A stretch of DNA of 34,680 nucleotides from positions 1-34,680 of the IMG/VR virus record IMGVR_UViG_3300008107_000427. One strand, given 5' to 3'. Position numbers and translations under genes: made by a program. Positions 3,568 to 28,196 of this stretch are shown here, one piece after another (positions within the stretch are counted from its first letter, which is position 1; each line of letters starts with the position of its first letter). Source of the DNA: a virus. The notes under the pieces are model-generated. The model made no database searches, was not told the origin of the DNA, and worked only from the letters and a program-made list of their open reading frames with translations.

Positions 3568-6500
3568 CAGTAGCCCACCACGGTTAGATCAACGAGGCCC
3601 GCCACAGCAGCACCGCTACTGTTCACACATTTTACGGTTACCGAGCTAGTTGACTTGCTGAGCACAATTGCGTTGATGGCGCTCGAGCCGGAGCTTTGCA
3701 GTGTTAGCTGCACAGACTTCACGGCGCGGAAAGGTTTTGTCAGGGGGATGGCGGTCCCGCCAGCGCTGGAGGAGATGACGGCGTCGTTGACGTTCTCGAT
3801 TACGTCTGGGTAGTCCAGCTGGAAGCTGATGCCGGAAAGGGTGCCGGGGGTGACGCCGTCGACGCTGCGGAACAGCGTCTGCACGAGATAGGTGTCCTCG
3901 ATCAGCTTTTCGTAGGGGGCGTAGGGGTGGAGGATGCCGCTGGACTCGCCACTAAGTGCGCCGGAGGTGTAAGTACGTTGCTCGGCGAAGAAGGGCTCTC
4001 CGTTCTCCTGCCAGATCTCGTTGTCGTTGTCCTGCAGGATTGAGGTATCTGCGCCGGTTAGGGCACCGACGCTGTGCTGATAAGTGGCCTGCGCGGTGGT
4101 CGAGACCAGCAGGCTGCTTTCGTAGAAGTTGTTGTCGAAGTTCCAGCGGTAGTAGCTGTCGACTGCCGGGTTGATCTGCTTAAGGGTGTTGGTGGCGGGG
4201 TCGACTTGGGCATTGATGTAAGTGCCAGGCCAGGTCGTGGAGCTGATGGTCTCCTCGTAGACCGCATTGCTGACGGGAGGGGCGCCGATGTTCAGCAAGA
4301 TGAAGGCGGGGTCGTCGCTGCGCCACTGGGTCGCGTCAACCGACTTCACCATCACGGTCCAGGTGTCGGTGTCGAATAGCGAGGTCTCGAACCACTGCTG
4401 TTGGGCAGAGACGCCGCCGGAGTACAGAGGGATGCCGAGGTCCCAAGTCTGAGATGGGCTGCTGTTGACTAGGCCGCCTTGTTTGTAACGGATCTCGTAG
4501 GACACCACGTCGGCGACAACGCCCTGATCCCAGGAGCCGTAGGTCGAGAGCGGCAGCTGCCAGCTGAAGCGCTTTTGGCCGCTGTTGCTGTTTTCCACCA
4601 CGGTGAATAGCCGTGGGGTGGGCGGAACGATCTCGTCGCGTTCCACCGTGTCGTAGAGGTAGTCGCTTGGCTGTTCTCCGAAGATGGCGCTGGTGAAGGC
4701 GGCGCGGATCTCCCAGTCCCCGGGAGCGTGAAACGCAATGGTGTAGTACCCCGTCAGGGGGATGTTGCTCAGGAAGTACCAGCCGTCGGGATCGGGGGGT
4801 TTGACGCCGGGGATGACGGTGGGCACGTTGGTGGGGAACGCCCAGATGCGGTAACCGTTGACGCGCTCGGGGACTGGACAGACACCCGCGTCAACGATCA
4901 GCAACTGAGTGCCGTCAGGCTGGTTTTGGTGACGGATAACGGCGTTGTAGGCCGGGTCGCTCAGATCAGGGATGGCCTCAAAGGCGACAACGCTGCTAAC
5001 GGCCCAGTCGCTTTGCCTGCCAAGGCGATCCGAGGTCGCGACACGTACCTCGTAGGTGTTGCCGTAGACGTGATCTGGCAAAGAGACCGCGGCGTTGGTC
5101 GTGCTCGTAGTGGCGATGTCACTCCATTCGCTGGCGCCGACACTGCGCCACTGGTACGAGTAGGACCGGACAGACAGGCTGTCTGCTCCGTTCTGCTGCG
5201 GTGAGCGCCAGCCGGCGTCGATTTGGGTGCGATTGTTGCGGAAGACCAGTCGAGCGGTTAGGTCTGTAACCGGCTGGGCGGCTTGGAGGGTGAACCGGTC
5301 CCTGGGTATGGCAACGGGCAGATTGTTGTCGATGTAGTCGTATTTGGAGGCGTTGTACTGCAGGGCCTCGACTTGGAAGATGAGGGGGTCGACCTCGCTT
5401 ATGGCGATGATGCGGTAGAGCGCGGCTGTATTGACGGCCCACTCCAATACCCAAAGGCTGCCGGGTTGGGTGGTGACGTTGCCACTGAGGAGCAGCACTG
5501 ACAGCCCCTCCGCGTCGAGCGTGTTGCTGGCGATCTGGTGGGTGCTGAGCTTGGGGGATGTTGTGGTAGTGCCGTCGGGATTGGTGGTGGTCTCACCGTC
5601 GGGGATGACGAGAGTCAGCGTGTAGGCAATGGCGGGGTTGAGGGTCAGGGGTGCGTCAACGGTCACGTTGTTGGCGCTGACGCTGGTCACACGGCCACCG
5701 AGGCGTTGGCCTTGCTTGAGGGGGTCAGCGATTTGGATGATTTCGCCGACACTGGCGGCTAGACCTTCGGCGCCGATGCGGAAGCTGACTTTCTCGGTCT
5801 CGTAGCGGTTGGAGAAGAGCGTGTGTTTGGCGGCCCGCAGTGCCTGACCGCGGGAGGTGACGCCCAGCAGCCGCAGGTCGATGGGGTTGTAGCCGAAGCG
5901 CTCGAGGAGCGTGTCGTCCTGGAGGTACTCGCTGACGCTGGAGTACACCTGATTGGGGTCGTCCCAGTTCGCCAGTACGACGGTTTTGCGTGCGGTTTTG
6001 GCAGTGCCGGTGTAGTTAAAACACGGAGAGGTGACCTGGCCGCTGTCGTTCACCTCTTGGATGACGTTGGCTTCGCTGAATTGCTGGACGGGCTGTTGGA
6101 GGCGGTCTTGCGTCAGGTAGAGCTTCCCCTCGCTGTAGTAGACCAATCCGCGGAAACAGGAGGCCAGTGCGTTCAGGACTTCGTAGACGCCGCCGGGATT
6201 CTGTAGATAGACGTTGCAGGTGAAGCGAGGTTCAGTGCCGCCGGCACCGTCCGGAACCGGCTCATCGCAGTACTGCGAAATGGTGTACAAGTACCAGGGG
6301 TCCACCGCAATGGTGGGGACATAGCGAGCGACGCCGAAGCGTGCGTTGATCACGATGTCGCGGAAGATCCAGGCGGGATTGTCAGTCCACGCCATCTTGA
6401 AAGTACCGTCCCAGAAGCCGGTATAGACCCTCGTGATTGGGTTGTAGTTGCTCGGCACCTGGACCCGTTTACCGCGCAGTCGCACGGACACGTCGGGGAT

Positions 6501-9359: not shown

Positions 9360-9886
9360 GTGTACACACGTTCCAGTTCAAAACTGACGCCGTAAATGTC
9401 GGGCCCGATGTGACTGATCTCCCAGCCATCACGGACGACGTACTGCTTTGCGGCAAGCCCAAGCGTGATCGTCACGGACTGTGAGTTTGGGATGTTGACG
9501 GATGTGAGAATCCCTGAGGCCAAGTTTGCTGTGTAGTTGGTTGGACGTGTATAGCCTTCTAAGGTCAGCGTGCTGATGTTTGTGTATCCAAGTCGCAGCT
9601 GACCAGCTGTGAACTGCCCATAGAAGGTCTTGGTGGCATCGGGATCAGTCCACAAGAAGGAGGTTCCGCGCTTGCGCAGGAAGAACGCCTCTAATCCCCA
9701 GGTGTCTGAGCCAGCCATGGGAGGCGTGCGGCATTGCCACACTTCGTTCTCGGTATTGAGGCCGTCCGTGATGATTTGGCTGTAACCATCCCCAAACTGC
9801 ACCCGCTGACTGCGGGTACTGCGTTTGACGGTGGCGTCGAAGGTTAGGCGCAGGTCGTCAATGTCGAGGAAACCAAGTGCGTTCAT
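9356..9886 (-). CDS. M: Lambda gpM-like minor tail protein, 176 aa
   Basis: The phrase RSQRVQFGDGYSQIITDGLN (near 22-45) is the signature of lambda gpM-type tail-tip proteins. It is followed by SFLWTDPD (near 76) and the end VSFELERVY, which corresponds to the closing strand of gpM. The protein is longer than lambda gpM (109 aa) because about 65 residues (roughly 100-165) are inserted, containing a Thr/Ser-rich beta segment. It overlaps the tape measure stop by four bases (ATGA) and the next gene likewise. gpM joins the distal tube end to gpL. Confidence 0.88.
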   Translation of the reverse strand: MNALGFLDIDDLRLTFDATVKRSTRSQRVQFGDGYSQIITDGLNTENEVWQCRTPPMAGSDTWGLEAFFLRKRGTSFLWTDPDATKTFYGQFTAGQLRLGYTNISTLTLEGYTRPTNYTANLASGILTSVNIPNSQSVTITLGLAAKQYVVRDGWEISHIGPDIYGVSFELERVYT

Positions 9887-12800
9887 CGCAGCATCCCTCC
9901 GCTACGCCGTTCATTCATCAGCGTTCCCATCACAATACCTTGAACTTGACGAGCGATTTGTTTTTGGGCTTCCGCACCCAAGCTTTCGCCTGTGTTCTGT
10001 ACGGTGATATTGATACCGCCATTAACGACGGTTTTGTCGCTACCTATCGCATGATTGGGGATGATGGAACCGCTAGATCCGGGGACGAACAGCTCGGGGC
10101 CACGTTCGCCAACGATGTAGGGGGTGCGGGCGGAGACGGGACCGCCGGCTGCGCGGAAACTAATACCTGAGTAGAGCCCTGGAGAGGAAAGTCCGCCTGC
10201 ACCACCAAGACCGGGCAGGTCTGCCACACCACCGCTCCCAAAACTGCCCCCGGTGAATGAGCCGAAACCGCCGCCACCTCCAATACTGGCGTTGCCACTG
10301 AAAAGACTATTGCCACCTCCCATAAAGATACCCAGTACCTTCATGATCAATGCCTTGGCAATCATCTGAGTTGCCATATCAAGAAAAGCCTTGCCAATGT
10401 TGGCAAACATCTGACCAAAGGCTTCGCCAATCGTTGCAGTACCCGAGATGACACCGCTGATGGCGGTACTAAGCGTCGACCCGAGCTCGGATTGGATGGT
10501 CTGCCCGAGGCTAGCGATTTCGCCACGTGTATCTGCAAGTTCACTCTTCCAGCGTCCGATGAGTTGCACTACGGGGTCATTCGCTGCAATTTGCGCACGT
10601 GCTTGGGCATCGATGGCAGCGGCCTCAGTAGCAAACTGACTACGGAGCGCTGTCTGCTTACTCGGATTGTCACCCGCTTTTTTCAGTGCTTCGTTCAGGG
10701 TGCGCTGAAGCTCAGCCTTCTTGAGTTCGGCGTCGATCAGCTCTTGGCGAACCCCCTCCAACTCAAGCCGTGCTCGGGTCTGAATATCTTGGGTGGATGT
10801 TTGCAACGAGCGCGTCCGGTTGAGGGAGGCTTCGTAAGCCGCCTGCTGGGCTGTGATCTGGAGAACCTTCAGACGCAGCTCTTTCTCCTGTGCAAGCTTT
10901 GTGACGTACTGGTTTTGGCTTGCAAGAAGCTGCTCTTTGAGCTTGTTTCTCTCGGCCTCGGTGATCCGACCAGCACGCTGCTGCTCAGCAGCCTTGGTGT
11001 AGATCTGTAGGATCTCTCGCTCTTGGATTGCGATCTTCGTCTTCTCATCGACAATGATCTTCAGTTGCTCAGGGTTGTATGCCTCCGCTGAAGCGGCAGC
11101 CAAGGCCTCCAGGCTCAGTTGTGCTTCTTTAAGTTGATTGTCGTACTCTTCTATCTGGACCTTGGGAAATGCAGCCTTAGCAATCTCCTCAAATGCTGCA
11201 GCAGTCTTGGCTTCGGTAAGGGCGGCTTGAAGCGTACGCAGGCGCTCCATGGAACTGCCAAGGCTGCGGACAGCAGTGGCATACTTTTCGATAGCGGGGG
11301 CGCCGATATCAGCAAAGCTGGGCGCTTTTGGTGCTACCGGAGTAGCTACCGCACCTTGAGAACGTGGGCTGGCTGTAGAAGAACCGAGTCCGTGTAAGAA
11401 AAGGTTGCCGGTTTGAAGGGATGTCGCCTGCCAACCCCCGGCACCACCCCAGCTTGGAGTACCTGCAGGGGTTGGAACAAGCGTTCCTTCTGGTACCGCA
11501 ATGTCGATGGCTCCACCACCAGATCGGCGGCCATGAATATCTTGTTCCTTGAGAAGGGCAGCTCGAAGCTGGCCCTCATCCGTCATGTTCTTGACGTCAA
11601 TCTTGGCATTAGACAGCTGAATGTACGGCAGTTGCTGTTGTTGCCAGGCTCGGATGATGGCTACAGCTTCATTTACAACGGCTTTGCGATCATTTGTTGG
11701 GCTACGCAGATCAAGGTGTGGCCCGCTGCTACGTCCCGTACTGCCTACGAGGAACCCAGCACTGACACCAGGAGCAGCCCCGGTTGTTGCAGCTGCTTGC
11801 CGACGGTAATCTGCGACCTTTGTCTCGTAGTCACCTGCGCGTTTGCGGATCTCTGCGATTTTCTTCTCGTTCTCGAGACGATAGTCGGAGATCTGGCGCT
11901 CGAGATTCGCAGCCTCGATATTCAGCTGCTTTTTAGAGGCTTCAATGTCTAGTTCCCCGCGCTCACGGGTAGAAAGGTAGTTGTTGAGCGCCTCCAGTGC
12001 AGCGGATGAGGCACCTTCTTCGCCTTCGATGAGCTTTTTGTTGGCCTGCTCCATTTGGAAGAGGCGTAGCTCCCCGGCAGCGCGGAAGATGTCGACTTCT
12101 TTCTGTGCCAGTTGTTGCCGTAACTGGAAGAGTTGATCTTCTTGCTGCTTCCGTAGTTCTCCAATCTCTTTTTCTAAGTTGACGCGCTTGTCGGCTTGCA
12201 GCTTGATATTGTCTTCTAGGCTGGCCTTATCTCTTTCAGCCTCTATCTTGCGCTTGGCTTCACGGAGCTTTACTTCCTCAGCAAGCAAGCGCGCCGTCTC
12301 TTTACTGCCACCAAACGGATCAATGTCCCCGTTAGCGAAATCGCCGAGCAAGCGAGCGAACTCACCCCATGTCTGAATGCCCGCGCGCGCCTCGTACTCG
12401 AGATCATTCAGCTTGGATGCGATCTCTTCAAGGCGCTCAATGGTCCGGTTGTATTCTGTGTCGACCAGACCTTTCCTGAAGGCGACTGCGGCTTTTGTGG
12501 CACTATCTGCGTTGTCAGCGACGTCTTTATAGGTCGTCGACAGCTCCTGCAGGGCCTGCATGGCCTTGCCGGTGCGAGCCGCTTCTTCCTGTGCTCGTTG
12601 GTACTTCCCGAAGGCATCGACAATCGCGGCAATGCCGACTTGGATGAGGAAGACCCAGCCCAGAGACGTAACAATCGAGAGGCCAGCTGCCTTTGCGGAC
12701 GAGCCCAGTAATTGGAAGGAGGACGCAGAATCTTTGACCGTGTCACCAGCTTTGGTGGTGTTCGTCGCCACGCTGGTGAGGTTGCCGGCTAGATCCTTGA

Positions 12801-14574
12801 GGGCTGCTGCTACAGCTGGGATGACGTTGAAGGGTGATATCAAAGCTGTCGCCAGACCCGCGAGGGCCAACGTCAGCTGGCCGACAGCGATGATCGCGGC
12901 GCCGATGCCTGCAACCAGGGTGGCCATGAAGGTCCCTAAGGCCCCGATGGCTGGTACCACTGAGCTGACGATGAAGCGTCCTAGGAGCGCGATGTTGGTA
13001 GCGGCGTCCAGACCAGCACGCTTAAGTAACCCGAGTACAGCAGCTAGTTCAGCGACGTACTGGACTCCCGGCAGGTCAAGGAACCTTGCGTAGACATTGA
13101 ACAGGCCAGCGAAGACCGTTACAGCGGGCTCGAGGACTACCACCAAGTTGGCTAAGGCAGAGGCCAGGGCCTCGAACGTGCCTGCTTTGATTTCGAGAAA
13201 GGCTTTTGTGAGGACGCGGAACGCATCTGCGATCACAAGGACTGAGGGCTTGAGCGCACTGAAGGCCAACGCAATTGCACCAACAGTGCGCTGGGCGATG
13301 CCTTCGATTGCGTTGAATGCCTTCTGCGCGACATCCTTGGCGTCATTTGCGAGCTTCGCGGTATCGATGCCCTGGCCTGCCCCGGTCCGGCCTGCCGTCA
13401 GGCCGATCACGCTGGAACTGACGCGACCGATGGTACGGCCGGCGCCCTCGGCTATTTCAAAGAGTGTGCTTCGAATTCGGAAAAGGGTTTCGAAGATCTG
13501 CGTCAGTCCTGTCAGTAGTGGATCAAGCAGACCACGACCGAAGGCCTGTCCAACAAGCTCGGTGATGTCCTTGAGGTTGGACACGACACCGGAAAAGCCT
13601 TGCGCTGCAATCCGTTGTCCGGCGACGGCTGCGGATAGACGGTCCTCGAGGAACTTGACAACTCCGCCTGCTTGGGTTTTTGCGCGCGCGACATCCTCAT
13701 TGGTGATCCCAAGAGCTTTTGCGAGGTAGGAATCGGTTGTGATGTCCGCTCGCAGAATTGAACCGATCTCCTGGCGCGCCTGGTAGAGGGGGATCCCAAA
13801 GGTCCCGAGCGCGGCGGCGAAGTTAATCGCCAGGTCTTCAGCTTCCTTCAGGCCACCGCCGATTTGACCGACTTGGGAGGCAACAATGCCAAAGACTTCG
13901 ATGACCTCCCCTGAGGTGACGCCGGCTAACGCAATTGAGCGTTCTCGGATGGAGTCAATACGCTTGCTAACCTCACCAGATAGGGCGACGATCTTCTGGT
14001 ACGGATCCGTGATCTCTTTACCATCACGGAAGACTTTGTTTGTGGAGGCAAGTGTTGTCTGGGTCTTGAGGATGGTCTCTCTGAGCTTGATCTCGCGACC
14101 AATGGTTTCGTTGAAGAAGCCTCCAAAGGCTGCCTGCAGCACTCCGACTGCCTGCTTGACGGCGAAGGTTGCAAACCCGATCTTGGCCAGATTCGTGACT
14201 AAGCCCGAGGCCTTCGAGCCTGCGAGCTCAAGGGAATTGGCAAGGATGGAGCCGGCTTTCGCGTTCTCGCGAAGCGCTGCTGCTGAAGCTGGGGCGTTCT
14301 TTGCGGTTTCGGCTACGTTCTTGGCTAAGTTTTCATATTGCTGAACCTTGTCGCCAATGCCGGGGACATTCTTGCTGACACGATAGAAGGTCTGGATTGT
14401 ATTGCCGGCTTCTTTAATGCTCTTTTCAATGTTGCCAAAGTCACGCCCAATCTGCGCGACATCGATATTTAGTGTTCGTTTTCTAGTTGCTTCGTTCGCT
14501 GCCTTGTCTACTGCCTGAAGCTTCCGCTCGGCAGCCTGGGTTTCGGCTGTGACATTGATTCTGAAATCAGCCAC
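9883..14574 (-). CDS. Tape measure protein with embedded M23-like segment, 1563 aa
   Basis: This protein sets tail length and is ejected with the DNA. It starts at a GTG with no ATG nearby (ADFRINVTAETQAAERKLQ), a typical tape-measure opening. There are long helical/coiled-coil regions and several hydrophobic stretches at about 520-590 and 650-670 (GLSIVTSLGWVFLIQVGIAA). A segment at about 935-1065 has peptidase-M23-like pieces: TGRSSGPHLDLR (H953, D955), HGRRSGGGAIDIA (H1014, D1024) and LFLHGLG (H1061). The C-terminus has the usual AAGGPVSARTPYIVGERGPE, then SGSIIPNHA. At roughly 0.15 nm per residue, it predicts a tail of about 230 nm if unprocessed. A small perfect hairpin (14597-14609) precedes the start. 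Confidence 0.95.
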   Translation of the reverse strand: MADFRINVTAETQAAERKLQAVDKAANEATRKRTLNIDVAQIGRDFGNIEKSIKEAGNTIQTFYRVSKNVPGIGDKVQQYENLAKNVAETAKNAPASAAALRENAKAGSILANSLELAGSKASGLVTNLAKIGFATFAVKQAVGVLQAAFGGFFNETIGREIKLRETILKTQTTLASTNKVFRDGKEITDPYQKIVALSGEVSKRIDSIRERSIALAGVTSGEVIEVFGIVASQVGQIGGGLKEAEDLAINFAAALGTFGIPLYQARQEIGSILRADITTDSYLAKALGITNEDVARAKTQAGGVVKFLEDRLSAAVAGQRIAAQGFSGVVSNLKDITELVGQAFGRGLLDPLLTGLTQIFETLFRIRSTLFEIAEGAGRTIGRVSSSVIGLTAGRTGAGQGIDTAKLANDAKDVAQKAFNAIEGIAQRTVGAIALAFSALKPSVLVIADAFRVLTKAFLEIKAGTFEALASALANLVVVLEPAVTVFAGLFNVYARFLDLPGVQYVAELAAVLGLLKRAGLDAATNIALLGRFIVSSVVPAIGALGTFMATLVAGIGAAIIAVGQLTLALAGLATALISPFNVIPAVAAALKDLAGNLTSVATNTTKAGDTVKDSASSFQLLGSSAKAAGLSIVTSLGWVFLIQVGIAAIVDAFGKYQRAQEEAARTGKAMQALQELSTTYKDVADNADSATKAAVAFRKGLVDTEYNRTIERLEEIASKLNDLEYEARAGIQTWGEFARLLGDFANGDIDPFGGSKETARLLAEEVKLREAKRKIEAERDKASLEDNIKLQADKRVNLEKEIGELRKQQEDQLFQLRQQLAQKEVDIFRAAGELRLFQMEQANKKLIEGEEGASSAALEALNNYLSTRERGELDIEASKKQLNIEAANLERQISDYRLENEKKIAEIRKRAGDYETKVADYRRQAAATTGAAPGVSAGFLVGSTGRSSGPHLDLRSPTNDRKAVVNEAVAIIRAWQQQQLPYIQLSNAKIDVKNMTDEGQLRAALLKEQDIHGRRSGGGAIDIAVPEGTLVPTPAGTPSWGGAGGWQATSLQTGNLFLHGLGSSTASPRSQGAVATPVAPKAPSFADIGAPAIEKYATAVRSLGSSMERLRTLQAALTEAKTAAAFEEIAKAAFPKVQIEEYDNQLKEAQLSLEALAAASAEAYNPEQLKIIVDEKTKIAIQEREILQIYTKAAEQQRAGRITEAERNKLKEQLLASQNQYVTKLAQEKELRLKVLQITAQQAAYEASLNRTRSLQTSTQDIQTRARLELEGVRQELIDAELKKAELQRTLNEALKKAGDNPSKQTALRSQFATEAAAIDAQARAQIAANDPVVQLIGRWKSELADTRGEIASLGQTIQSELGSTLSTAISGVISGTATIGEAFGQMFANIGKAFLDMATQMIAKALIMKVLGIFMGGGNSLFSGNASIGGGGGFGSFTGGSFGSGGVADLPGLGGAGGLSSPGLYSGISFRAAGGPVSARTPYIVGERGPELFVPGSSGSIIPNHAIGSDKTVVNGGINITVQNTGESLGAEAQKQIARQVQGIVMGTLMNERRSGGMLR

Positions 14575-14612: not shown

Positions 14613-15580
14613 CTATTCCGCTGGAGTGTTCAGTGTCGCGAACACATGCAGAGGTATCTGACGAGTCCGAATCAGCTCTGAAAGGATGAATTTGGTCGGT
14701 TGGTCGGGGCCATCGACCTCGGTAGAGGCTGGTTTCCAGTCCGGGAACGGCAGAAACTCGTTTGGTTTGACTTTGGGTGCAGCCCGTTTCGATCCGGAGA
14801 AGCCATGCGCGACTTGGACCACTAACTGGGTCAGTCGGGCCGTCGTGATCGACGCCAGGTTGGCCTTAGCTTGTTCTGCATCGTCGATTTGGCGGAGCAG
14901 CCAGCGCAACGTGCTGATGGGAGTACGCAAAAAGCGCTCGGCTGGGTAGTCGACTCCCATGGGGGAGCACCGCACTCGGACGTAGATCTGATCCCAGTCG
15001 GTTAGAGGGGAGCGCAGCAACCCCTCGCAGTCCTTCAGGATTTGCTCGGGGGTGGGCTGAACTCCGGTTCGGCCTCGGACTCGTTTCCCGCTGGTACGGG
15101 CCAGCCGTCACGCTCCCAGGTGATCAGGCTGAAGATGTCCTGCATCACCTTGGTGGGCATGGACTCCGTATCGGCCTCGGTCCAATCCTCGAGCTTGGTC
15201 CAGTCCTTGGCGCGGGGCAGCTTTGCTTCGCCGCGGTAGCGCATGAACAGGGTGACAAAGGCGATTTGCTGCTCTGTCGCCCCTACGTTCTCGCGTTGCA
15301 ACTCCTCGAGGTCGGTGGCGTAGTCGTACAGGATGTCTTGGTTCTCGTCGTCCCCAGCTTTGCTCAGCATCTCCAGGGCTTCTTTGGTGCTGACACCTTT
15401 GTCCTTGGCGATCCGTTGTGCGAGCTTGATGGAACGGAAGGTCGATTTGGATTGTTTCCTGCTGATCTCCTCAATGCCCTTGGATTCCCCGGGGACCAGA
15501 TCGTTGTAGATCGGGAAGCGGAAGGGGCCGATCTCGTGGTACTTGTCTGGGGCGAAAAGAAGCGAAGCGTACTTACTCAT
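14613..15580 (-). CDS. Tail assembly chaperone GT fusion, made by -1 frameshift
   Basis: The second half (14613 to about 15107) has no good start of its own; the only early candidate is a TTG at 15020. Its frame is -1 relative to the upstream chaperone and is open only from 15107. The two frames overlap at a heptamer G GGA AAC (15089-15083) placed exactly in the zero frame. Slippage there would join 166 residues of the first protein to 156 of the second, about 322 in all; the downstream part then reads PTPEQILKDCEGLLRSP. Lambda makes gpGT by a -1 shift at GGGAAAG at the same map position, just before the tape measure. The ratio of short to long form is known in lambda to matter for tail assembly. 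Confidence 0.82.
15035..15580 (-). CDS. Tail assembly chaperone (gpG-like short form), 181 aa
   Basis: This protein binds the tape measure and helps assemble tail subunits around it. The start is ATG 15580 (MSKYASLLFAPDKYHE); an earlier in-frame TTG or CTG-type start would only lengthen it across the previous gene. The sequence is mixed charged and helical (KGVSTKEALEMLSKAGDDE) and ends in an acidic Glu/Pro/Ser linker after residue 160, where the slippery site lies. It overlaps the 77-residue gene by eight bases. No enzyme motif is visible. Identification rests on its position directly before the tape measure and on the -1 frameshift arrangement. Confidence 0.8.
   Translation of the reverse strand: MSKYASLLFAPDKYHEIGPFRFPIYNDLVPGESKGIEEISRKQSKSTFRSIKLAQRIAKDKGVSTKEALEMLSKAGDDENQDILYDYATDLEELQRENVGATEQQIAFVTLFMRYRGEAKLPRAKDWTKLEDWTEADTESMPTKVMQDIFSLITWERDGWPVPAGNESEAEPEFSPPPSKS
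15083..15089 (-). other. Slippery heptamer GGGAAAC for -1 ribosomal frameshift
   Basis: The minus strand reads G GGA AAC in the chaperone frame (codons starting at 15088 and 15085), the canonical X XXY YYZ form with X=G, Y=A, Z=C. The -1 frame is blocked by a TGA at 15110-15108 just upstream and open downstream to 14613, while the zero frame stops at 15037-15035. Position and sequence correspond to the lambda G-T site (GGGAAAG). Confidence 0.82.
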
Positions 15581-15806
15581 CGACAATCGGGAGCTCCACA
15601 GACCACGCACGAAAAGGTGCTGACTGGTTGAGGAGTTCAAGTGGAAGTTCGATCTTCACATTAGCGTCCTCATACGCTAGGCGTATATGCTGGGACTGGA
15701 TCAGGGGGTCTAGGTACAGGGCGCCACAGTGCAGGGTGGTGCCTTCTACCCGGCAGTTGACCGCGAAGACGCTGTTGATTGCGTCGAGGAGCAAGTCGTG
15801 GTGCAT
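15573..15806 (-). CDS. 77-aa protein between major tail protein and tail chaperone
   Basis: The 77 residues begin MHHDLLLDAINSVFAV and are mixed alpha/beta, with two Cys (18 and 27) and an acidic end (SVELPIVDE). I do not recognise a family. It starts only seven bases after the T-run of a strong intrinsic terminator and has no Shine-Dalgarno-like sequence, so its translation may depend on reinitiation or on read-through transcripts. Its last eight bases overlap the chaperone start. Position suggests a tail assembly factor. A role in capping the expression of the downstream genes is possible but not shown. Confidence 0.6.
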   Translation of the reverse strand: MHHDLLLDAINSVFAVNCRVEGTTLHCGALYLDPLIQSQHIRLAYEDANVKIELPLELLNQSAPFRAWSVELPIVDE

Positions 15807-15866: not shown

Positions 15867-16877
15867 TTATGCCGTCCTGAAGTTGGTGGTGAAACCTTCC
15901 AGGGGGCGTTTGACGCCGGAGGCAGAAGCTGTACCGCTGCTGTCCACAGCCTGGGTGATGGCACCGTCGGCCACAACCAGCTGGTAGATGGTGCCAGAGG
16001 CGAGGTTCGCACTCGGGTTGATGGTGACAACGTTCCCGGACAGCGTGACAGCTGCAGGTACGGCCACACCAGTGGAGGCGACTTCCAAGCGGAAACCGCT
16101 GCCATCGGTCTGTCCGAGGGCCAGTTGGGTGAGTGCAACGGTGCCGTCGCTTGTGTAGGTGACGGTGAGATCGTTGCCCACAACCACAGCGCTGGCGTTA
16201 TCCAGGGGCACCGTGGCGTAACGGCGGCTACCCGAGCTCGGGGCGGTGAACAAGAGGCTGGACTGCACACCACCGAAGCTAATCGGCGTAGCACCAGCGT
16301 TGTAGCGGCCGAACACGGGGCGGGCACGCGACATCAGGTCGAAGGTGATCTCGGTGAGACCTTCGGCGTTGATGGACTCCTGGTAGTTCATGATCACCGC
16401 GTTGAAGCCGGTGAAGTCATACAGGTAGTTGCCCGTGGTGCCGTCAGCTTGGCCCAGCTCTTTCAGGAACTCGATGTAGATCTCGTAGTCCTTGTTGTAG
16501 CGGGCACGCTGAATCAGGTTGAAGCCCTCGTCGTAGTTGCCACGGAACTGCGGGCAGTTCTGGCCGGCGGGGACTTCAGCGTCCTTCAGGAAGTAGGCGG
16601 TGACCGATGCTTGCACCGACGAACCGGTGATCACGCTGTCAGCCCAGCCGTCATCGCCCAGGAGGCGGAACTCCTGGTTGTTGTCGTTGATCTGGAAGCT
16701 GGTCTGGGTGATGCCTTGGAGCTCGACGTAGCTAGAGCCGGGGTCGAGGGTCGGCAGGGTGATCAGGCCGGCGCTGTCGCGGTTGGCGAAGTAGCGGCAG
16801 GGAGGGGTCAAATCCACGGCACGGACAATGGTCCGGTGAGCCTTGTGGAACGAGAGCCCGATGGCGTAGTCGGCCAT
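15867..16877 (-). CDS. Major tail (tube) protein, 336 aa
   Basis: Residues 1-220 form the tube domain (start MADYAIGLSFHKAHRTIV, then TLDPGSSYVELQGITQTSFQ). Residues about 230-320 form an added Ig-like beta domain (VEVASTGVAVPAAVTLSGN-like strands, VVTINPSANLASGTIYQLVV), as in other tail-tube proteins that carry surface Ig domains, and of the Big/SbsA type. A good ribosome site (GAGGA, eight bases before the ATG) indicates high expression. It is placed between the terminator-type protein upstream and an intrinsic terminator downstream. The identification comes from size, position and Ig-like C-terminus. Confidence 0.82.
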   Translation of the reverse strand: MADYAIGLSFHKAHRTIVRAVDLTPPCRYFANRDSAGLITLPTLDPGSSYVELQGITQTSFQINDNNQEFRLLGDDGWADSVITGSSVQASVTAYFLKDAEVPAGQNCPQFRGNYDEGFNLIQRARYNKDYEIYIEFLKELGQADGTTGNYLYDFTGFNAVIMNYQESINAEGLTEITFDLMSRARPVFGRYNAGATPISFGGVQSSLLFTAPSSGSRRYATVPLDNASAVVVGNDLTVTYTSDGTVALTQLALGQTDGSGFRLEVASTGVAVPAAVTLSGNVVTINPSANLASGTIYQLVVADGAITQAVDSSGTASASGVKRPLEGFTTNFRTA

Positions 16878-24525: not shown

Positions 24526-25396
24526 GGGGGACGGGGGCGAGCTGCTCGAAGACGGCAGCGCGGTTGAGGCTTGCGAGCTCGGTGGTGCCGGTGCGCTGGA
24601 GGGCGGCTGCCACCTCTTGCTTATGCAGATCGCGCATAGCTGCGTAATCGGGGTCCATCTGGGCGATCTCAGGGTCCCAGGGGGCGACGTAGCAGCGGCA
24701 TCGAGGGTGGAGTGGCACCTTGATTTCGCTGCGTCTGTAGAGCTCCCCGGCCCGCGGGGCGCAGATGGGGCAAGCTCGGTCATCAGCAGTCGCGTAGTAC
24801 ATGACGACGTCGATGCCCTGGGCTGCGTAGTACGTGTTGGACGCGCTGTTGTAGGCCCGTAAGGACTCCGTGCGCACGATCACGTCGGCACGGGACTTCA
24901 CCACACCTAGGCGGAGTCGCATGTCCTGCACCATGGCGTCGGTGGGACGGCCTTCGGCGATCCCTTGGGCGACAGTGGCTGCAGCGGTCTCGGCAAACTT
25001 CTCGCCGTGACGGCGCAGATAGCCCTTGGCTTGACTTGCAGCCGCCACCGTGGCCTCCAAGGGAATGGAGACATCGATGCGCGGCGTGTCTGGGCGCATC
25101 TGGGTGGTCAACTTCTGGCTGACGACCAAGCCGAGACCAGAGGCGTCACGCACGAGATTCCGGAATAACCGGTCGTATGCGTCCACCTTGTCGGGCCGAA
25201 TAGCTGGGATCAGTTGCCGGAACTCCTGCAGCAAGGCGAGGTTGCGCTGGGTCGGATCGGAGTAGCCGGCCTTCATGTGGATCCGGGTCCGACGGACCAG
25301 GCGGTTGAAGGCCTGGTCGAGGACACGGTTCAGCAGACGCAGGGTGCCGTCCTCGGTGGTGCGGAGGGTGCGGTTGTACTGCTCAACTACGTCCAC
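24512..25396 (-). CDS. Mu gpF-like minor head morphogenesis protein, 294 aa
   Basis: The C-terminal half carries the family signature: VIVRTESLRAYNSASNTYYA, then DRACPICAPRAGELY (C-x2-C) and LHPRCRCYVAPWD (H-P-x-C-R-C), which together form a zinc site. The N-terminal 150 residues are helical. Proteins of this family (Mu gpF, SPP1 gp7) bind the portal and are ejected or support DNA delivery. It starts at GTG 25396 with GGAG nearby and overlaps the upstream gene by 14 bases. Gene order (portal, large protein, this) is standard apart from the inserted 937-residue gene. Confidence 0.9.
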   Translation of the reverse strand: MDVVEQYNRTLRTTEDGTLRLLNRVLDQAFNRLVRRTRIHMKAGYSDPTQRNLALLQEFRQLIPAIRPDKVDAYDRLFRNLVRDASGLGLVVSQKLTTQMRPDTPRIDVSIPLEATVAAASQAKGYLRRHGEKFAETAAATVAQGIAEGRPTDAMVQDMRLRLGVVKSRADVIVRTESLRAYNSASNTYYAAQGIDVVMYYATADDRACPICAPRAGELYRRSEIKVPLHPRCRCYVAPWDPEIAQMDPDYAAMRDLHKQEVAAALQRTGTTELASLNRAAVFEQLAPVPLSAG

Positions 25397-28196
25397 GTTC
25401 CATCTCCACCAGGGAGCGCTGGATGAGGAGGTAGTCCGTCATGGCTTGTGCCCGCACCGCGGGGCCGTAGGTCTTAATGCGGGACCAAAGCTCGTCAGGG
25501 CTGATCAAGCCACCGCCGGCACGCTCCGCATCAAGACGGGAACCCTCGAAGTACTGGGAGTATTGCTTGGCGAGGTCTTTGCCTACCGGAGAGCTGAACT
25601 CGCGTTGGCCTTGAAGGAAGGTGACGAACTCGGTTGCGGTGTAGCTACGGCCTTGAGCGCGACCTTGATAGATGGCTTCGCGCCCTTCTCGACGTTGTCC
25701 ACGGGAGACGCCGAGGTCAACTACGGCGCGTGTGGCGCGACGGAAACGCTGGAGCTGTTCGGACTCGGGGACGCCGTAAGCAATGCCGTTAGCTAGGGCT
25801 TCACAGTTGTCCCGGGTCAGAGAGAACCTGTAGTCAGTACCGGCGATGCGGATCGCGCGTTTTACAACTTCTTCGTTAGTGAAGGGAGCACCCGTCCTGG
25901 CTTTGAACTTGGGATCAGGAGCCTTGATCAAAGGTGTCATCAGGGCCTGTGAGGTTTTCAACCCAGGCTTAGTGGCGCCGATCTCGGTAACGTCTGTCCA
26001 GCTGAAGCGGGACTTGTTCGTGTTGGCGATGACGGCCCGAACTATGCCGTCTTTACCTTCTCCCAGATAGATGCCGAAGTGCGCAGCTGGGTCTCTTTCA
26101 TTGCGGAAATAGACCACGTCGCCCGGTTTGAGGCCGGATTTCTTGGTGTAGTAGTAGCCCATGGCTTCGCTGGCACTTTTGGTGCTGGCTTCTTGCTTCA
26201 TGGATTTGACGAGGTCTTTGATGCCCGGGCTCGGAGTGAGTGGGGACTTCGTCGGATCGCTCAGGGTCTTGAGGTTGTAAGCAACGGTGCCAGCAACAGC
26301 CAGGGCGACTGCGCCTCCGGCGACAGCAGCGACGGTTGCGGCCTTGCGCTTCTGGTCGTTCTCGGAAGTTGCAGCACCTCGTCCCTTCTGGCACTCATGC
26401 GCCTTGGGGATGTGGGAGGCGCCACAGGGCTTTCCCAAGTGGCTGCTCTCCTTGAAGTCGGCGCGGGCTGCGAGGTAGGTGGCAGTGCGGACGAGCTCGG
26501 GGGAGAAGTCGTCCTCATCGCCGCGGCGGCGTTTGACTTCGCGGCGTGCGGCTTGGAGCGTCATGCCCGGGTTTTCGCGCATCAGGGCGTAGACCGCTTC
26601 ACCCTCGCTCATGGGGCGAGTTCGCGCGGTTACGGCTGTTTTTGCTGGTACGGCCCTCGTAAAGCCCTCCCGTTCAAGGATTTGGAACGCTTCCCCCTTG
26701 TTGACTGTGCGTCCTTCCAACTCGGAGGCTGCCGCTACAGCGAGGCGGTCGGTAACGGCGTACATCCGGCGGGGACCCGTGCCGGTTACCTCGGAGTGGT
26801 AGTCCCGCAGGACAAGCTCGGCATGCGCTGGGCCTTGGACTCGTTGGCCAGGACGTGTCAGTCCCAGTAGGTACTGAGAGCGGGCCATGGTCCCGTTGAG
26901 CATTGTCTCTTCTGCCCCCGTCTCACGCAGAGCCTTTGTCATGCGGGCGCTTTGCGTCACATTGGAAATGACGGATCCCTGGGATTTGTAAAACTCATCG
27001 AAACCTTTGTAGGTAGCCCGATAAAGAGCATCCGTGCGCCCTTTAGGGCTGAGGCTCAGGGTGTCCTCAAGGTGTTTCGTCAGTACGCCGCGAACAGCTA
27101 GAGAGCCCTGTCCCTTTGGCAAGGTGGAATTGACAACGCCTTGAATGAAGGCACGTTGGTCCTTCTCGGCTATGACGCGGCCATTGCGTGTATTCGTAAT
27201 CGCAAAGCCTTGCTGCTGGGCAAGATCAAGAAGAGAGCTCTTGTAATCAGTGAGTTGGCGCTGAACCGCATCCTTGATGGACTTTGAAGTTAGCGTGTCA
27301 TCTCCCTGAAGTTTGAATTGCCGCGCCAGGAATTCATCGGTCGCAGGGCGTGCGAAGACGTTGCCCTCCTCTTTAACGCCAAGACCAACACCACTCTCGT
27401 GCTTAGTTGTGTTGAAAAAGACTTGTTGGTGTTCCTTATTCCAGGCGTCAAAACTGGATGTGGCACCGCGATGGCTATCGTTGACAGCCTGCAGAGCTAC
27501 GACAAGCTTTGACCTAGCGTCGGTGTCTGCCTGGGCGGGCGTAGTCCGCGTTAGTTGGCCTGTCAGTACAGATTCGACAGGGTTGGCCTGCCTTTGGAGT
27601 TGGGCTTCAATGCCGGATTGGACTTGAGCTCGCACGCGGGCTCGATTCGCTCCGATGATCGGAGTCGCATCAAGTACACGACTCAGGCCGAGCCGGACCG
27701 AGTTGTTGATGTTGGCGCCTACACCTTCTCGGTAGCCAAAGGTGTTGCTCTTCATCAGGATCGAGTGGATCCCGAGGCCGCCGGTAACGACGGCTAGGCC
27801 AATGCCGATGGTACGGGTGCGATCTTCGAGTTTCTTCTGGAGCTCTTTCTTCTGCTGTAGGTTGCCAGGGGCGGCTTTGACGGTGCCGCGGATGATGGCG
27901 CGTTTGCCGCCCTCGACCTCGGAGAAATTGCCCCGGACGATGCCACGTGCGATACGGGAGGCGCCGCGCTGGATGTTCGCGAGGCCCCCGAGGGGGTCGG
28001 TTTGGGTAGCGCGGAGGTGGGGGTCAGTGCCCTGACCCTTAAGGCGGCAGTCCCAGCTCGGGGGAATGCAGCGGTTGCCGCAGCGGACGTTGGGCGGGTT
28101 GCACTGGACGTTGCGCGTGGTCTTGCGCGCGTCGAGTCGGGCTTTGGCGGCCAGATAGGCCGCAGTCCTAAAGCCCTCGGGAGTGGTGTTGTTCAT
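25383..28196 (-). CDS. Large virion protein with two Cys motifs and an LRAT-like domain, 937 aa
   Basis: It starts one base into the portal stop (TGATG). Residues 5-54 hold TPEGFRTAAYLAAKARLDAR and CGNRCIPPSWDCRLKG (C39, C50). Next come RGNFSEVEGGKRAIIRG and a hydrophobic helix (IGIGLAVVTGGLGIHSILM, about 100). A long helical middle follows. A second copy, SPELVRTATYLAARADFKES and KPCGASHIPKAHECQKG (C591, C602), is followed by a membrane-like segment (AVAGGAVALAVAGTVAY). Residues about 690-805 resemble an LRAT domain: GLKPGDVVYF, HFGIYLGEG (H706) and RDNCEALANGIAYG (C798). These would be the catalytic His and Cys of an acyltransferase or lipid hydrolase. The second LRAT His is not visible. 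The last 130 residues are basic and helical. It could be an injected, membrane-active protein. Confidence 0.75.
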   Translation of the reverse strand: MNNTTPEGFRTAAYLAAKARLDARKTTRNVQCNPPNVRCGNRCIPPSWDCRLKGQGTDPHLRATQTDPLGGLANIQRGASRIARGIVRGNFSEVEGGKRAIIRGTVKAAPGNLQQKKELQKKLEDRTRTIGIGLAVVTGGLGIHSILMKSNTFGYREGVGANINNSVRLGLSRVLDATPIIGANRARVRAQVQSGIEAQLQRQANPVESVLTGQLTRTTPAQADTDARSKLVVALQAVNDSHRGATSSFDAWNKEHQQVFFNTTKHESGVGLGVKEEGNVFARPATDEFLARQFKLQGDDTLTSKSIKDAVQRQLTDYKSSLLDLAQQQGFAITNTRNGRVIAEKDQRAFIQGVVNSTLPKGQGSLAVRGVLTKHLEDTLSLSPKGRTDALYRATYKGFDEFYKSQGSVISNVTQSARMTKALRETGAEETMLNGTMARSQYLLGLTRPGQRVQGPAHAELVLRDYHSEVTGTGPRRMYAVTDRLAVAAASELEGRTVNKGEAFQILEREGFTRAVPAKTAVTARTRPMSEGEAVYALMRENPGMTLQAARREVKRRRGDEDDFSPELVRTATYLAARADFKESSHLGKPCGASHIPKAHECQKGRGAATSENDQKRKAATVAAVAGGAVALAVAGTVAYNLKTLSDPTKSPLTPSPGIKDLVKSMKQEASTKSASEAMGYYYTKKSGLKPGDVVYFRNERDPAAHFGIYLGEGKDGIVRAVIANTNKSRFSWTDVTEIGATKPGLKTSQALMTPLIKAPDPKFKARTGAPFTNEEVVKRAIRIAGTDYRFSLTRDNCEALANGIAYGVPESEQLQRFRRATRAVVDLGVSRGQRREGREAIYQGRAQGRSYTATEFVTFLQGQREFSSPVGKDLAKQYSQYFEGSRLDAERAGGGLISPDELWSRIKTYGPAVRAQAMTDYLLIQRSLVEMERGRS

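Follow-up and report, generated by a model that had tools for sequence, protein, structure and literature searches.

A very probable lambda-type −1 frameshift in the tail-chaperone locus of uncultivated phages related to cyanosiphovirus S-CBS4

The usual frameshift in the tail-chaperone gene very probably operates in an uncultivated phage family related to the cyanosiphovirus S-CBS4. The locus examined here lies in a virus record of 34,680 bases, analyzed over its whole length and hereafter called the window, and it comprises two overlapping open reading frames (ORFs) with a slippery heptamer, G_GGA_AAC, close to the end of the first. We consider it highly likely that ribosomes reach the second ORF by a programmed −1 frameshift of the lambda G/GT type. 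This reading, which had been put forward in a first-pass annotation of the sequence, is favored because of the map position of the pair, the register in which the heptamer is read and its conservation among homologues, a constraint on synonymous codons that is confined to the heptamer and overlap, and the lack of a conserved alternative start. The value of the result is mainly one of annotation: the phage family is mostly unannotated and probably cyanobacterial, and two proteins otherwise without a family gain a firm annotation.

Frame anatomy and gene neighborhood of the chaperone locus

The features of the locus are collected in Table 1. In the zero frame, the heptamer is read as GCG GGA AAC (W-P-V-P-A-G-N-E), and the zero-frame TGA (15037-15035, minus strand) lies 45 nt beyond it. 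The −1 frame is closed by a TGA at 15110-15108 on the same strand and is then open from 15107 to 14613; after a −1 slip, it continues as RVRGRTGVQPTPEQILKDCEG... The first-pass annotation had described the register of the heptamer, the −1 stop and the open frame that follows it, a zero-frame stop shortly after the heptamer, the continuation of the −1 product, and the position of the pair before the tape measure, and it proved right on each of these points. In-register X_XXY_YYZ sites are rare in the long ORFs of this phage (13 per 7644 codon positions, 5 of them with AAA as YYY), and the chance expectation in the 22-codon overlap is therefore about 0.04 sites, or about 0.01 for those with YYY=AAA. 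No second slippery site was found in the overlap in the window, and in a few relatives a GGGGGGA overlaps the heptamer.

Table 1. Features of the tail-chaperone locus and its neighbors in the window
Feature	Coordinates	Strand	Remarks
Tail tape measure gene	9883..14574	minus	PHROG 1538, tail length tape measure, E 9.9e-20
−1 frame extension, putatively lambda T-like in role	14613..15083	minus	156 codons post-slip; profile match to S-CBS4 −1 frame
Overlap, zero and −1 frames both open	15035..15107	minus	Synonymous-codon constraint confined to heptamer and overlap
Zero-frame chaperone gene, putatively lambda gpG-like in role	15035..15580	minus	181 aa, ATG at 15580
Slippery heptamer G_GGA_AAC	15083..15089	minus	In register in 73/73 distinct loci
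Conserved 77-aa ORF	15573..15806	minus	3′ end overlaps chaperone start (ATGAGTAA); between tail protein and chaperone
Probable major tail protein, C-terminal Ig-like domain	15867..16877	minus	Weak PHROG major tail matches, E 0.015-0.019; Pfam Big_5

The chaperone pair (15580-14613), whose two ORFs overlap, stands directly before the PHROG 1538 gene. The gene order on the minus strand is lambda-like, running from terminase, portal, protease, and major capsid protein to the probable major tail protein, the 77-aa ORF, the chaperone pair, the tape measure, minor tail proteins, and lambda I- and J-like proteins. The 77-aa ORF, the stop codon of which overlaps the chaperone start codon, had tblastn matches in 134 loci, duplicates counted, and its homologues in relatives include some with as little as about 46% identity; a PHROG family search with it returned no match. 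The best isolate relative of the capsid protein is that of Synechococcus phage S-CBS4 (52% identity) and the terminase is nearest to those of cyanobacterial phages, and for these reasons a cyanobacterial host is likely. Past the portal, the window also encodes a 937-aa protein (25383-28196) with a Pfam LRAT domain (E 1.2e-8) and a weak NlpC/P60 match.

Conservation of the slippery site and of the codons around it

Homologous loci were gathered from three viral-contig scans, one genome-contig scan, and two isolates, yielding 73 distinct loci (71 uncultivated plus S-CBS4 and P-SS2) each of which covers the 3′ end of the first ORF. The genome-contig collection gave a single match, a short contig in a proteobacterial MAG that is too small for host assignment. 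Comparison with relatives had been named in the first-pass annotation as a check on its reading, and it located a slippery heptamer in the same register and inside the overlap in every locus: GGGAAAC in 45, GGGAAAG in 25, AAAAAAA in 2 (locus L031 and S-CBS4), and GGGAAAA in 1. Present in every one of the 73 distinct loci, the in-register heptamer is far beyond what chance would produce. These loci are mutually related, so that the counts are not independent events and thinned counts are the fairer measure; the site was found in all clusters after thinning, numbering 31 at 90% identity, 19 at 80% protein identity, and 9 at 70%. The distance from the heptamer to the zero-frame stop varies between 13 and 124 nt across the 73 loci, and the site is therefore not part of a passively copied block. 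In each of the 70 loci where the −1 frame is complete, it stays open for at least 120 codons beyond the zero-frame stop.

The second half could in principle be an independent gene, translated by coupled initiation near the zero-frame stop and without any frameshift. A candidate start does exist in the window, namely a TTG at 15020, 17 nt beyond the T that opens the zero-frame stop codon and preceded by a Shine-Dalgarno-like AAGGA; a truncated second product could begin at this codon. However, this TTG is kept in only 2 of the 73 distinct loci, with a GTG at its place in 4 more, and in 42 loci the −1 frame contains no ATG, GTG, or TTG from its last stop to a point 60 nt beyond the zero-frame stop. 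The protein sequence of the −1 frame is moreover already conserved upstream of the TTG (QPTPEQIL), and independent initiation leaves the conserved in-register heptamer unexplained. Given the lack of a conserved start for the second half and of any start at all in this region of 42 loci, independent initiation is removed as the main rival, and we regard it as very improbable. The first-pass annotation had itself singled out relatives encoding the second half as a separate gene with a good start as the finding that would count against a frameshift; the survey of relatives thus left the frameshift reading standing.

A second alternative is that the heptamer is a by-product of conserved Gly-Asn coding, with the overlap being unexpressed or a frame break caused by sequencing error. 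Gly followed by Asn or Lys is indeed itself conserved close to the C-terminus. Nonetheless, at GGGAAAN sites the codon before Gly always ends in G despite the varying residue that it encodes (A, E, G, or V), Gly is always GGA although this codon accounts for about a quarter of Gly codons in these genes, and the next codon switches between AAC and AAG (Asn or Lys). Synonymous codons were also compared in 22 representatives over both genes. The same-codon frequency was 0.82-0.84 at the heptamer versus 0.42-0.44 expected and 0.84 in the overlap versus 0.34 expected, while elsewhere in both genes it was near background. The constraint in the overlap matches the prediction for double coding; in the window, for example, a change of zero-frame TTC to TTT would create a TAG in the −1 frame. 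The synonymous constraint at the heptamer and overlap refutes the coding by-product, a sequencing error is contradicted by the same break in 73 distinct loci from many samples, and we give this explanation practically no weight. Slippage of the polymerase rather than the ribosome, conceivable at the seven-A run of L031 and S-CBS4, is just as implausible, since neither GGGAAAC nor GGGAAAG is a homopolymer run and the codon register is exactly the one that tandem slippage of tRNAs requires.

Proposed expression of the pair and searches for folds and RNA stimulators

According to the lambda G/GT-type reading, most ribosomes would terminate at 15035 and release the 181-aa chaperone. In a presumed minority, the tRNAs paired with GGA AAC would slip back to GGG AAA, and these ribosomes would read 156 further codons to 14613, producing a chaperone extended at its C-terminus. 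If the two products act as in lambda, the short form may coat the tape-measure protein and the extension may recruit the major tail subunit. A more novel reading, less probable than not, is that the pair represents a tail chaperone family outside the recognized sequence families, in which lineages have changed the last base of the A-site codon (AAC or AAG) and kept the other heptamer bases constant. Such a switch might adjust the relative amounts of the two products to the tRNAs of the host.

Searches of Pfam and PHROG returned no family match for either half of the pair. The predicted model of the chaperone (mean pLDDT 74) had no significant match in the PDB, solved tail chaperones included, and in the VIA-align rows for this model all Z values were under 5 and of a common helical type, with no tail chaperone listed. 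In a viral model library, the matches of this moderate-confidence model to annotated tail chaperones were only weak. With a mean pLDDT of 62, the extension model was judged too poor for a fold search. A downstream stimulatory RNA was sought in 80-nt folds past the site in 18 relatives, where z-scores were scattered from 0.9 to −3.6 with no common element, and RNAalifold detected no compensatory change in the downstream region.

Known systems and cultured relatives

Frameshifting of the lambda type is ordinary in long-tailed phages, and GGGAAAC is already known at such a position elsewhere. As in lambda G/GT, the pair is located before the tape measure, the shift is in the −1 direction, an in-register G_GGA_AAx lies near the end of the first ORF, and the extension has no conserved start of its own. 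The lambda heptamer is GGGAAAG, whereas that of this phage ends in C, the lambda form being the one carried by 25 of the 73 loci. The pair further differs from lambda in having no detectable sequence family match and in the 77-aa ORF that separates tail protein and chaperone. The mechanism, roles, and wide conservation of lambda G/GT have been reviewed, with G_GGA_AAC listed for the archaeal virus HCTV-1 (PMC5009743), and Caulobacter phage Colossus has GGGAAAC at the corresponding map position (PMC3556154). The likeness to Colossus and to the haloarchaeal HCTV-1 is one of heptamer and map position, and these are other phages with other hosts. Our literature search found no report of this frameshift site in cyanosiphoviruses; the paper on the P-SS2 genome makes no mention of one either.

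In both cultured relatives, the two halves were deposited as separate hypothetical proteins, gp032 and gp033 in S-CBS4 and gp064 and gp065 in P-SS2; each pair is probably one frameshifted gene deposited as two. The first half in S-CBS4 is homologous to the chaperone of the window (33% identity). Its slippery site is A_AAA_AAA, in register, and the open −1 frame was matched to the extension profile at 98% probability. In this genome (NC_016766, 4001-4971), gp032 appears to be annotated with a start that is too late by 69 nt. The −1 frame, probably the frameshift extension, is longer than gp033, which covers its 3′ part. In P-SS2 (PSS2; NC_013021), the first half is weakly related to the chaperone of the window (E 6e-3), and its extension shows weak similarity to that of the window. 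The tape measure of this phage is not adjacent, lying about 18 kb beyond gp064/gp065 according to the table in its genome paper. gp064 contains G_GGA_AAG in register (GGGAAAG at 4483-4489) and gp065 is in the −1 frame; together (3935-5163), they look like a single frameshifted tail chaperone gene.
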